Positions 54,996-60,094 of a stretch of DNA of 64,000 nt are shown piece after piece. This DNA comes from Carboxylicivirga fragile. Its GTDB lineage: Bacteria; Bacteroidota; Bacteroidia; Bacteroidales; Marinilabiliaceae. The translations under genes and the position numbers were made by a program. Location: NCBI GenBank assembly GCA_025499625.1, contig JAFMVD010000005.1, positions 1 to 64,000 on the forward strand. The letters run 5' to 3'. Each line of letters opens with the position of its first letter. Position 1 is the stretch's first letter. The notes under the pieces are model-generated. The model saw only the letters and a program-made list of their open reading frames with translations, ran no database searches and was not told the origin of the DNA.

Positions 54996-57737
54996 TTATA
55001 TTCTCAATTTAAGTTCTGCTCCAAAATAGAGGCTTGAAGGCCCACCGATTGTATTAGATTTTCGTTCCAATTGACGACCATATTTATCTGTATAGGATTG
55101 ATAATAGCTGAGTAAACGATTAACATAAAAAGCTACTCGTAAATGTTCGCCAATTTCTTTTGTCATTTTTATATGCATGTCCAGTGAAAGGGGTATTGGA
55201 TCATTATCAAAATAATGATCATTGAATGACAGCATTAAATGTCGTAAGCTTGGATCATCAGCATCCGTTACTTTATAATCATGGATAATTTCGTCACTAT
55301 CCATATAATATAAAGGGTATTCCGATTGCCATTCAATTTTTCGATTATAATACCAAACCGCTTGTGTATCAAGCGTAAATATCATTCGTAATAATGGAAT
55401 GTGAGTATCAAATCTGAAGTTGGTATTAAACTGTTCCTTTTTATAATTTGTAGCACCATAATATCCAACATATGGATACTCCTCATTGAATAATACCACA
55501 TTAGGATGATCTGTATCTATAACCTTACTTGAGTAATAGGTTTTAAACCAAGCACCAATCAAGCTTATCTGTGTGTATAAAGTATTAATTTTAGGAAATG
55601 ACATGGAATATTCAATGCCTTTCTTGTCTACAATACTACCATTGGTATAGTTAGTTATACCATCAAATGTTTTTTTCGCATTGTAATCAAATTGATTTAG
55701 GGTCGGTGGAGCTGTTAATCCTTCTGATGATAATGATGATGGATTGTAACGGTTGTAAGTTAGTGAGCGATATACCCTTTCTGAGGTAAAGCCAGTATCC
55801 ATGTATTCATGAAAAAGTGTAGTATTAAGATTAAACCCATTCCAGTTAACTCCCAATGATAGTTCCTTTTTCTCATTTCGAGATGCTTCTAACAAATGGT
55901 TGACAGGCTTATCAATAAAGGTTCTCGTGTAAATTGTTCTTAAATCAGGATTTTGTGAGAAATAATTTAGTTCAATAATATCAGAATAAACATCGTGAGG
56001 ATAGAGGTGATACGTAATAGGTAACTTAGTATGTACACCGTATCCAAAACCTAACCATAATTGTACATTGGATTGTCCGGATTTAATAGCAGGCAGATTT
56101 ATCCGAGCATTAATACGCGGATCGAGATACACTTTATTACTTAAAGTATAAGCAGCATCAATACCTAAAAGCTGTGAACTTCTTAGTCCAATCTTTGTAT
56201 TAAAAGAATAATTTCCAAGCTTAAAACTGATATCATCTTCAATAAAAACGAAGAATTTTGTTAAAGCTGGAATATCATTAAAATTTCTAGGACGACTTGA
56301 TTTAGTGCTACTTGATAAAGGGCGAGTAACATCATATATTTCTCCCTGTCCACTATTTTTAACGGATGAAACATTCGTCCCGATTAATAACTTATGGTGA
56401 GTACTACTTAATTTAAAAGCTTTATCTAAGTTTAGATTTGCATAGATATCTTGCGGTTTGCCATCAATTTTAATGTAAGCCTGATATTGAGAAGGTAGAT
56501 AAACAGCCTTATGAACACCTTCATTAACACTTATTGGTTGTGGCAAAGGTCCATTTACAGAAATGAATTTACTACGTTCAAGAACATCACGTGTTATTGC
56601 ATAAGATACATCAAAACTTAGCTTATCGATCACCTTGCTCTGAATGTAATAATCAGCGTTAAATGATGCATTTATTTTTTGATAATCAGCAGTATAATAA
56701 TCCTCTTTTCCATTATTTAATTCGGGATCAGATTTTTCACTGTCAATAGTTTTTATATACCTTAGATTAAGCTTTGTAATTAAATTTTTACCATAAATTT
56801 TAAATTGTTTTTTATAACGAAGAGATGACGTAATACGTTGATAGTTATTAAGTGGATTGCGTGGATCACTGGTATAATCGAGGTAATCAAGTCCTAGATT
56901 AATATATCCTCCTCTATCTGATATTTGCAATCCTTTATTAAGTGAAAATAACTTGTTTTTGATATCCGTTTTAAAACGTCCTACCCATTGCGTTAAACCC
57001 GATTTGGGTGTAATAATGATGGCTCCAGAAGTTAAATCACCATATTTTGCAGAAGGAATTCCAGTAATTACTTCTACCTTTTCAATATCATCAGTACTAA
57101 TTTGGCGTAAATCATGACCTATGCCAACCGTATTATTATCGCTTATATCATTATCACTGTGGAAGGAGCGTTGAAGGTTTCCGTCATTGTTTTGTGGGAT
57201 TTTATCAATAATAATATTAACACCCATAGAGGTGTTATTGTCTGAACCTACTTGTCGTAAGCTAATTTTATTGGGACTACTCATATTCGGATCTTGTGTT
57301 AATCCTCCGGGTAGTAATTGTAATACTTCAGTTAACGATGAGGGTTGAATATGTTGTAAGGCCGTTTGATCAATTAATGAAGATGAACTAATCTGTGCAT
57401 TGGTTTTAGCGATTACGTTAATATCAGGCAATGCTAAAGTTTGTCGTGGTAATTTTATAATAATTGGGGCAGTAGGAATTTTTATAAGCGTATCCATCGA
57501 TTGGTACGATAAACATCTGATAGTAATACGCACCTCATTAACTTGTGGTATTGCTAAACTAAATTGACCTTTTAAATCAGTGATACACCCTAATGATTCG
57601 TTGTTTAAAACAACACTACAATATGGGATTGCTTGTTTTGTCTGTGCATCTAAGACAATTCCTTCAACTGATAATTGTGCATTAGTATAAAAATGTAACA
57701 TTGCTATAGCAATAATTACATATCCTTTTTTCTTCAT
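54996..57737 (-). CDS. TonB-dependent receptor with carboxypeptidase-like N-domain
   Basis: The 913-residue protein has a signal peptide ending in TNAQ. A carboxypeptidase-D-like regulatory domain (about 22-105) is followed by a plug (LTEVLQLLPGGLTQ ... DDIEKVEVITGIPSAKYGDLTSGAIIITPKSG) and a barrel ending LKLRI. There is no STN domain and no adjacent sigma factor, so it is not a surface-signalling receptor. It heads an eight-gene operon with a recognisable promoter. No SusD partner, hence a small ligand or metal complex is more likely than a glycan. Confidence 0.92.
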   Translation of the reverse strand: MKKKGYVIIAIAMLHFYTNAQLSVEGIVLDAQTKQAIPYCSVVLNNESLGCITDLKGQFSLAIPQVNEVRITIRCLSYQSMDTLIKIPTAPIIIKLPRQTLALPDINVIAKTNAQISSSSLIDQTALQHIQPSSLTEVLQLLPGGLTQDPNMSSPNKISLRQVGSDNNTSMGVNIIIDKIPQNNDGNLQRSFHSDNDISDNNTVGIGHDLRQISTDDIEKVEVITGIPSAKYGDLTSGAIIITPKSGLTQWVGRFKTDIKNKLFSLNKGLQISDRGGYINLGLDYLDYTSDPRNPLNNYQRITSSLRYKKQFKIYGKNLITKLNLRYIKTIDSEKSDPELNNGKEDYYTADYQKINASFNADYYIQSKVIDKLSFDVSYAITRDVLERSKFISVNGPLPQPISVNEGVHKAVYLPSQYQAYIKIDGKPQDIYANLNLDKAFKLSSTHHKLLIGTNVSSVKNSGQGEIYDVTRPLSSSTKSSRPRNFNDIPALTKFFVFIEDDISFKLGNYSFNTKIGLRSSQLLGIDAAYTLSNKVYLDPRINARINLPAIKSGQSNVQLWLGFGYGVHTKLPITYHLYPHDVYSDIIELNYFSQNPDLRTIYTRTFIDKPVNHLLEASRNEKKELSLGVNWNGFNLNTTLFHEYMDTGFTSERVYRSLTYNRYNPSSLSSEGLTAPPTLNQFDYNAKKTFDGITNYTNGSIVDKKGIEYSMSFPKINTLYTQISLIGAWFKTYYSSKVIDTDHPNVVLFNEEYPYVGYYGATNYKKEQFNTNFRFDTHIPLLRMIFTLDTQAVWYYNRKIEWQSEYPLYYMDSDEIIHDYKVTDADDPSLRHLMLSFNDHYFDNDPIPLSLDMHIKMTKEIGEHLRVAFYVNRLLSYYQSYTDKYGRQLERKSNTIGGPSSLYFGAELKLRI

Positions 57738-57759
57738 TCAGATGTCGATTAGTCGAGCA

Positions 57760-57790
57760 CAAATTTACTTTGCGCCAATTGTCCAATCAA
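57760..57790 (-). promoter_or_regulatory. promoter of the eight-gene TonB/ABC operon
   Basis: On the minus strand TTGA (57787-57790), a 19-base spacer and TAAATTTG (57760-57767) match the -33/-7 pattern, with the ATG 22 bases past the -7 box. Confidence 0.7.
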
Positions 57791-58380
57791 TCATCATATT
57801 TAGGTAATTATTATAGGTAGTTATTTGATAAAATCTACCATTATCTTTCGTTTGACCACACAAAAAAATCAATAGTTCCTTCGTGTTTAATTACTTAGTA
57901 TATTATTTAAACAAAAAGATGGGAGTAATTATTTATGGGGATGCGTATTGTTTCAAGCGGGAAAGGGAATAAAACAATTGTACCCCAATTTCAATAAGAA
58001 TTGAGGTACTAAAATTTAAAAAAATCTAATCAGTTTAATAAATTACAAGTAGCGAAATAATCGATAGAAGAAAAATCTGAAGAATTAAAAAACGAACTGG
58101 TATTTCAATATTTCTAATACTACCTTTCAGGGAATTCATTAAAGCAATTCTCATAATACATTAATTTTTAATAGGTGATAAAACCTTAATTATTAATACT
58201 CAAATACTATTCCCGATCAATAAACTTAGACGTAAGTGTTTATTAAAGGTTGCTTTATTTCTTAAAAAAATCTCAATATTTTAAGAAATAGAATATTGGC
58301 AATACATCTTATTAAAAATAACCTACTGAATTTCATACACTTATTTCAAGTGATAAAAAATAATTTAATATTTAATTCCT
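57791..58380. other. AT-rich spacer between divergent operons
   Basis: No coding frame of note. A hairpin at 57980-58009 (GTACC-c-CAATT pairing with AATTG-a-GGTAC) stands out but has no T-run on the plus strand. The rest is very AT-rich, with no repeat or RNA gene I can recognise. Confidence 0.5.
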
Positions 58381-58384
58381 GAAC

Positions 58385-58418
58385 TTTTTTGTTTTAAGAC
58401 TAAATAATCTTTTATTTG
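58385..58418 (+). promoter_or_regulatory. candidate promoter of the met leader and metY
   Basis: TTTTTTG (58385-58391) could be the -33 box and TTTATTTG (58411-58418) a -7 box with TTTG preserved; the spacing is about 19. The leader-peptide ATG is only 10 bases downstream, so the transcript would have a very short 5' end. Confidence 0.35.
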
Positions 58419-58427
58419 TTGTCGTAT

Positions 58428-58532
58428 ATGAAACAAACAGTTACTCATATAATTTCTACCAAAATCGATCGCATTCAGCAATCGAACAGTTCATCGTGGA
58501 ACATGATGATGTGTATGATGATGACAAGATAA
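58428..58532 (+). CDS. methionine-rich leader peptide (34 residues)
   Basis: The open frame starts MKQTVTHIIST, runs through a hydrophilic stretch and ends NMMMCMMMTR before TAA (58530-58532). Six methionine codons and one cysteine codon fall in the last nine sense codons. Its stop lies 112 bases before the methionine gene metY. This is the pattern of attenuation leader peptides such as those for His, Thr or Leu operons, with ribosome stalling at Met codons when charged tRNA-Met is scarce. Confidence 0.8.
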   Translation: MKQTVTHIISTKIDRIQQSNSSSWNMMMCMMMTR

Positions 58533-58602
58533 TTGTCACAACGCATCGTATCTGAAAATCAAACAAATTTCAAAACAAACAGACCGGTGCGTAAGCAACG
58601 GT
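58522..58602 (+). promoter_or_regulatory. putative methionine attenuator with alternative helices
   Basis: Hairpin ACCG-g-TGC-GTAA-GCA-a-CGGT (58583-58602) has a GNRA-type loop and is followed by AGATTTTGATT, a weak T-rich tail. Alternatively, ACGCATCG (58541-58548), starting 8 bases after the leader stop codon, pairs with CGGTGCGT (58585-58592): eight pairs including one G-U. The two cannot coexist. A third hairpin, TGACAA/TTGTCA (58522-58538), spans the leader stop. A ribosome stalled at the Met codons would free 58541-58548 and prevent the terminator-like hairpin. Confidence 0.6.
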
Positions 58603-58632
58603 AGATTTTGATTGTAAGAACATTAACCATAA

Positions 58633-59940
<1,308 letters not shown>

Positions 59941-60014: not shown

Positions 60015-60070
60015 ACCCCTCCAACCTCCCCTAAAGAGGGAGGCTAAGTCCCCTTCAGGGGATTTGGGGT
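60015..60070. repeat. REP-like element forming a three-way junction
   Basis: ACCCC (60015-60019) pairs with GGGGT (60066-60070). It encloses two hairpins: CCTCCC/GGGAGG (60025-60043) and CCCCT/AGGGG (60050-60061). Its GC-rich content contrasts with the surroundings. From memory, similar intergenic palindromes recur in many Bacteroidota genomes, so this is probably one copy of a dispersed family. Confidence 0.7.
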
Positions 60071-60094
60071 ATTTTTAAAACAATTAATTCGCTT

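Follow-up and report, generated by a model that had tools for sequence, protein, structure and literature searches.

The metY gene of Carboxylicivirga fragile is probably controlled by a ribosome-mediated, methionine-specific attenuator with four RNA strands, as judged from sequence comparison with its relatives. The leader lies in a 64,000 nt stretch of DNA, hereafter the window. The first-pass annotation of this region had proposed a three-strand switch, of which the mutually exclusive, covarying helices were retained; the number of strands was not, since the Met codons themselves (strand A) also pair with the strand behind the stop codon (strand B). The comparative data point to a real and conserved Met attenuator, for which the four-strand design is better supported than the three-strand proposal. 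Its elements are the following:

58388–58418, + strand: probable promoter, consisting of TTTG (58388–58391), 19 nt and TTTATTTG (58411–58418)
58428–58532, + strand: leader peptide gene, 34 sense codons, MKQTVTHIISTKIDRIQQSNSSSWNMMMCMMMTR followed by a stop codon; Met-rich end kept in relatives
58503–58523, + strand: Met-codon run, presumed stalling site, three ATG, TGT, three ATG
58506–58514, + strand: strand A, AUGAUGUGU, inside the Met codons; pairs with B
58522–58538, + strand: small hairpin carrying the stop codon in its loop; stacks on A:B in the predicted fold
58541–58554, + strand: strand B, ACGCAUCGUAUCUG, after the stop codon; pairs with A (via 58541–58549) or with C
58580–58592, + strand: strand C, CAGACCGGUGCGU; partner of B or D
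58595–58602, + strand: strand D, closing the C:D hairpin 58583–58602, the presumed OFF hairpin; a weak T-run follows
58645–59940, + strand: metY, O-acetylhomoserine sulfhydrylase, the regulated gene (TIGR01326, E 3e-207)

In the proposed mechanism, A would pair with B and C with D when Met is ample or when the leader is not translated, giving the OFF form. If charged elongator Met-tRNA is scarce, a ribosome would stall on the AUG run and mask A; B, thereby freed, would pair with C and dissolve C:D, giving the ON form. Both the stalling on the Met run and the role of B:C as the ON form are inferred. The earlier proposal had a ribosome at the stop codon cover the first strand of the switch. However, with the usual footprint, a ribosome at this position (58530) would reach only the first few bases of B (58541–58554), which makes for a weak explanation. 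As such covering is geometrically doubtful, the A:B helix takes its place in the present model.

Sensing of Met supply usually relies on SAM riboswitches, T-boxes or repressors. A leader peptide for Met is uncommon, as a shortage of Met should also slow the initiation of leader translation, which counts against Met sensing by a leader. We speculate that with six elongator codons in a run the leader may be sensitive enough despite slowed initiation.

Leader frame and its distribution

The 34-codon frame before metY, with six Met codons among its last nine, had been described exactly, with every coordinate correct. The peptide ends MMMCMMMTR, and 112 nt lie between its stop and the start of metY, the product of which makes homocysteine for Met. 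No other of the 1,038 small ORFs (15–80 aa) in the six frames of the window has five or more Met among its final nine residues, and none of 25,693 ORFs from 20 mononucleotide shuffles of the window has such an end. The leader frame is not expected by chance.

For comparison, metY-like genes were collected from relatives, with a match in 98 of 100 genomes, and 90 upstream regions were examined (30 in a first and 60 in a second set). The earlier proposal had been made dependent on relatives sharing a Met-rich frame and covarying helices. Both were found: a Met-rich leader together with strands B and C is present in 36 of the 90 regions (25 of 30 and 11 of 60, respectively), and the helices covary, as detailed below. 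Each of the 36 leaders comes from a different genome of the window's own family, and the genus Carboxylicivirga has the leader in 14 out of 14 genomes. It is absent upstream of metY in other members of the family, for instance at L023, L024, L028, L031 and L034. Other frames with several Met codons (L054, L065, L075, L076, L079, L085, L096, L098) were left out of the count in the second set because their peptides are unlike this leader, L096 alone having been read.

In a second collection the leader was found at 18 of 80 metY loci with a cut-off of four Met in ten residues, which misses weaker leaders such as that of Geofilum; a 19th row (L201) was excluded. The records with leader include some named Carboxylicivirga, Marinilabilia, Saccharicrinis, Labilibacter, Thermophagus and Plebeiobacterium. 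A covariance model, R1, matched in 20 of 40 genomes of the family with one strong copy each. These main matches are all located just upstream of metY by their coordinates; a weak second match occurred in genome G039, and the model missed G021, the leader of which (L043) was recognised by eye. Across the order, 4 of 247 genomes, the own genome included, matched at E ≤0.1 under stricter filters by which weak matches are lost.

A weak second model match in the own genome, at L038, turned out to be a His-codon run before hisG, matched as its reverse complement. Within the class, 26 of 295 genomes contain the pattern ATGATGATGNNNATGATGATG; translation in the Met frame covered 30 loci, and of seven read in their context none resembled a Met leader.

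The probable promoter follows the TTTG / TAnnTTTG consensus given for Bacteroidota in PMC7366714. A strict search for TTTG-N17-21-T[TA]nnTTTG found a promoter-like pattern upstream of 13 of the 36 leaders. Since the promoter adjoins the leader frame, transcription probably begins no more than a few bases away from the ATG of the leader.

Two other sequence elements are located close to metY. Upstream of the metY start, the stretch 58619–58644 of the window, ACATTAACCATAAAAACTAAATA, shows strong conservation within the genus and may be only the translation start region. Between metY and hom there is a GC-rich palindromic stretch (60025–60075 of the window, CCTCCCCTAAAGAGGGAGG and beyond), the 19-base pattern of which occurs once in the window with up to three mismatches allowed.

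Alternative helices and their covariation

Strand A of the window forms nine pairs with B, AUGAUGUGU (58506–58514) with ACGCAUCGU (58541–58549), and the small stop-codon hairpin comes next. The pairing of 58541–58548 (ACGCATCG) with 58585–58592 (CGGTGCGT), put forward in the first-pass annotation, is borne out by sequence and fold, with eight pairs, one of them G-U; so is its mutual exclusion with the hairpin 58583–58602, with which it shares a strand. A:B, B:C and C:D share strands and hence are alternatives, C:D being known from folding only.

The 231-nt leader folds better than all of 200 dinucleotide shuffles (z -3.07). Folded from 58500 onwards, without a ribosome, the window's RNA adopts A:B plus C:D at -26.3 kcal/mol, and in 33 of 36 leaders the OFF combination is predicted to be lower in energy than an ON form in which A is masked. 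Counting against this, the fold of the whole 231 nt yields B:C instead of A:B, because the Met run then pairs with an upstream TCATCG. In the genus, C:D has an energy of about -7 to -12 kcal/mol and mostly contains one mismatch. Most leaders fold C with D; C:D is weak or replaced by another hairpin in L019, L021, L033, L036, L047, L058, L062 and L064.

For B:C, 88.5% of cells are paired in alignment A1 (23 sequences), compared with 20–47% when the strands are slid. In the same alignment the covariation score of B:C lies above 500 of 500 shuffles. Two-sided changes are seen at 5 of 13 pairs, as many as in only 7 of 500 shuffles, while for further pair types the alignment does not exceed its shuffles (177 of 500). 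For 20 representatives, the own B:C duplexes were better than any of 5,000 permutations of the partners.

For A:B, 168 of 198 cells are paired in register over the 18 distinct combinations that the 36 leaders provide, compared with 15–60% in other registers, and 16 of 20,000 permutations of B were as good. The divergent genus g3 alone has 66 of 66 cells paired, which 457 of 20,000 permutations reach, and outside g3 the numbers are 102 of 132 cells and 179 of 20,000 permutations. A1 gives a weaker result for A:B: 79.1% of cells are paired versus 12–64% when slid, and none of 500 shuffles has as many. Rows L019, L021 and L033 at least are out of register in this alignment; with them included, the covariation score stands out only modestly (22 of 500 shuffles) and two-sided changes are no more frequent than in shuffles (217 of 500). 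An energy-based test of A:B gave 45 of 5,000, and 128 of 5,000 within g3. Tests of this kind can be inflated by shared ancestry.

Strong covariation of B:C might also be expected if this helix belonged to a metabolite aptamer, that is a riboswitch, with the frame being incidental, and a riboswitch of the SAM-I class does precede metY in other Bacteroidota. Yet the loop between B and C varies in sequence and length, leaving no conserved unpaired core, the Met run is kept in 36 of 36 leaders and pairs with B, and there is no Rfam match, either at gathering score across the window or with E values up to 5 in 58200–58700. We regard the aptamer as very improbable and retain the attenuator.

More can be learned from the codons that interrupt the Met run. 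Among relatives these are UGU, UGC, UAU, UGUUGU, UGUCAC, UGUCGA, UGUCGC, UGCCGA, UGCAGC, CGUUGU, CGC, CGCCGA, CGA, CACCGA, GGACGA and UGGAAU, and in most variants B is altered to match. A three-way comparison in 35 leaders covered the base of B that immediately precedes CGCAU, its counterpart at the third position of the interrupting codon in A and its partner in C, L051 being omitted because its C strand is unalignable at that position. The three bases (A/B/C) agree as T/A/T in 15 leaders, 12 of them from the window's genus, as C/G/C in four and as A/T/A in one. Of the remaining 15, 11 break the A side, which counts against the model (eight of the GGA type, two with C against A, one with G against A), one loses the C partner and three pair with the help of G-U. 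Within one genus, L062 (TGT/A/T) and L058 (TGC/G/C) differ by a synonymous Cys change that is matched in both RNA partners. This three-way agreement is the best single sign that B may switch between A and C.

The Cys codon had been suggested to add sulfur sensing. In relatives Arg, Gly, Tyr, Trp or His stands in its place, and changes of the codon are tracked by B and C. Because Cys is not kept and its codon changes are matched in the RNA, sulfur sensing is unsupported; the interrupting codons (Cys, Arg, His) are best explained as kept for pairing with B and not for sensing another amino acid. The same replacements, the lack of conservation in the N-terminal half and the synonymous change between L062 and L058 all argue against a functional Met/Cys-rich micropeptide, even though a Met-rich C-terminus is kept across the family. 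We regard such a peptide, too, as very improbable.

Termination or translation as the possible output step

C:D of the window is followed by AGATTTTGATT, a weak T-run that had been named as the main doubt about the attenuator. This doubt was justified, as no + strand terminator is called in 57700–58700 of the window. Only six of the 36 leaders, the window's included, have at least five T in 8 bases starting 0–2 nt after the stem. This scarcity of T-runs and the missing terminator call weigh against the idea that, downstream of the same sensor, C:D terminates transcription between 58602 and ~58615, with or without Rho or other help. Nevertheless, we would give termination about an even chance. 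Between the end of C:D and the metY ATG there are 42 nt, which matches the placement of a U-tract terminator before hisG in the own genome. Marinilabilia-type relatives (L025, L026, L029, L032, L045, L046, L049, L052) have 6–7 T in 8 bases, the T-rich stretches starting 5–9 nt after the stem, and the first leader of genome G074 (see below) has a called terminator. Furthermore, the long extra spacers from C:D to metY in L058 and L027 are easier to fit with termination.

With the same sensor, the C:D form might instead hinder ribosome loading on metY or expose the RNA to decay, an output that we consider possible but rather doubtful. It would suit the genus, where 11 of 14 members are without a U-tract (at most three T in any 8 bases starting within 12 nt of the C:D stem). 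However, the hairpin lies ~42 nt upstream of the metY start, and ~100 nt or more in L027 and L058. Masking of this start was rejected as a candidate, its predicted access being alike in both states: the unpaired fraction is 0.49 in the OFF and 0.53 in the ON form, with no consistent direction among 35 leaders (L058 left out). We tentatively place termination ahead of a translational output; C:D would lower expression by premature termination more likely than by masking of the start codon.

Comparison with known regulators

SAM-I (RF00162) is similar to the Met leader in being located upstream of metY-like genes in other Bacteroidota. It differs in that it binds SAM directly, with no translation involved. 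Among 20 loci scanned with Rfam, ten have SAM-I upstream of metY, ending ~200–300 nt before the metY match; these records come from Pontibacter, Botryobacter, Spirosoma, Splendidivirga, Pedobacter, Pseudopedobacter and other Cytophagales or Flammeovirgaceae. Three others are Met-leader loci without SAM-I, and the remaining seven show neither a SAM-I match nor a flagged Met leader. SAM-I occurs in 29 of 100 relatives, in five of them (G065, G066, G069, G083, G090) just upstream of metY. Thus, the window's family has Met codons where some other Bacteroidota have SAM-I at metY.

The SAM-I aptamer model has no match in the window, but one match each in 12 of 14 genomes of the window's genus. The single SAM-I of the own genome (G000:C63:87108-87206, L143) precedes not metY but an amino-acid kinase with ACT domains, which we read as aspartokinase. 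SAM-II (RF00521) has no match in the window either, and its count of 0 of 100 relatives does not imply absence from them, as the control genomes were also without a match. Bacteroid-trp (RF01692) is likewise a cis-regulatory motif in the RNA of Bacteroidota that is associated with an amino-acid gene, and differs in that the amino acid is Trp. It has no match in the window, and two sub-threshold matches in the own genome are both located elsewhere. This RNA appears in a table of PMC2864571.

It is tempting, though we put this forward only tentatively, to see here a Met-codon attenuator of one family, located at metY where other Bacteroidota have SAM-I, with codons, post-stop strand and antiterminator strand co-evolving as a three-way triplet, and in most of the genus without a canonical terminator, the output being Rho-assisted, pausing-based or translational. 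Because the same gene carries either SAM-I or Met codons, the sensing of SAM and of charged Met-tRNA can be compared at one gene. The leaders also record, across relatives, how sensing codons agree with either of two partners in the RNA, and they offer a case, open to testing, of an attenuator that has no obvious terminator.

Other codon-run leaders exist within the order. In the own genome, tandem His-codon leaders (L038:1413-1466 and 1552-1605, contig C57; MKNCIHHIHHLFLPQVG and MLNNFHHHTHHHYLSSR) precede hisG at 1712 and apparently are tandem His attenuators. They share with the Met leader a short codon run before an amino-acid gene; in contrast to it, each is followed by a called U-tract terminator. 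The Met-codon run 58503–58523 is complementary to the second His run (L038:1567-1587) at 20 of 21 bases, ATG reversed being CAT and TGT reversed being ACA. The two leader RNAs could pair with each other, although this possibly is a coincidence of the codons. In genome G074, which belongs to a different family of the order, metY is preceded by two Met leaders in tandem (MKLNKNMMMSMMMSKEIYAKDIII, MRFINNNTNSMMMGMMQMMMHIMLLYYPD; L144:1686-2016). Besides the called terminator of the first, the second has a hairpin and T-run by sequence and fold, which is uncalled. Downstream of metY there are a gene for an alpha/beta-hydrolase, which by its position resembles metX, and a frame similar to aspartokinase. 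G074 would represent a second, possibly independent design of a Met attenuator.

We found no description of a Met attenuator in Bacteroidota among the open-licence papers searched; a comparative study of attenuation by Lopatovskaya and others from 2010 may hold related predictions. A Met leader has been proposed earlier for metL of Streptomyces lividans, before metNIQ, with termination unclear (PMC8079986). According to that source, metL would likewise be a Met-codon leader before a Met gene, leaderless and without a typical intrinsic terminator. It differs in that the gene encodes a transporter, the organism belongs to the Actinobacteria and the peptide contains CMC..MC rather than a Met run; covariation or competing strands were not seen in its description. 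We consider the evidence for metL as a Met leader weak.

The closest parallel in architecture is to the classical ribosome-mediated attenuators of the E. coli trp, his, thr and leu operons. There, too, a leader peptide contains a run of codons for the end product, the codon strand pairs with a protector strand, and an antiterminator competes with a terminator-like hairpin. The leader described here differs in sensing, as proposed, Met and not Trp, His, Thr or Leu, in having B behind the stop codon, and in a C:D hairpin mostly without U-tract. In its anatomy it matches a classical four-strand attenuator.
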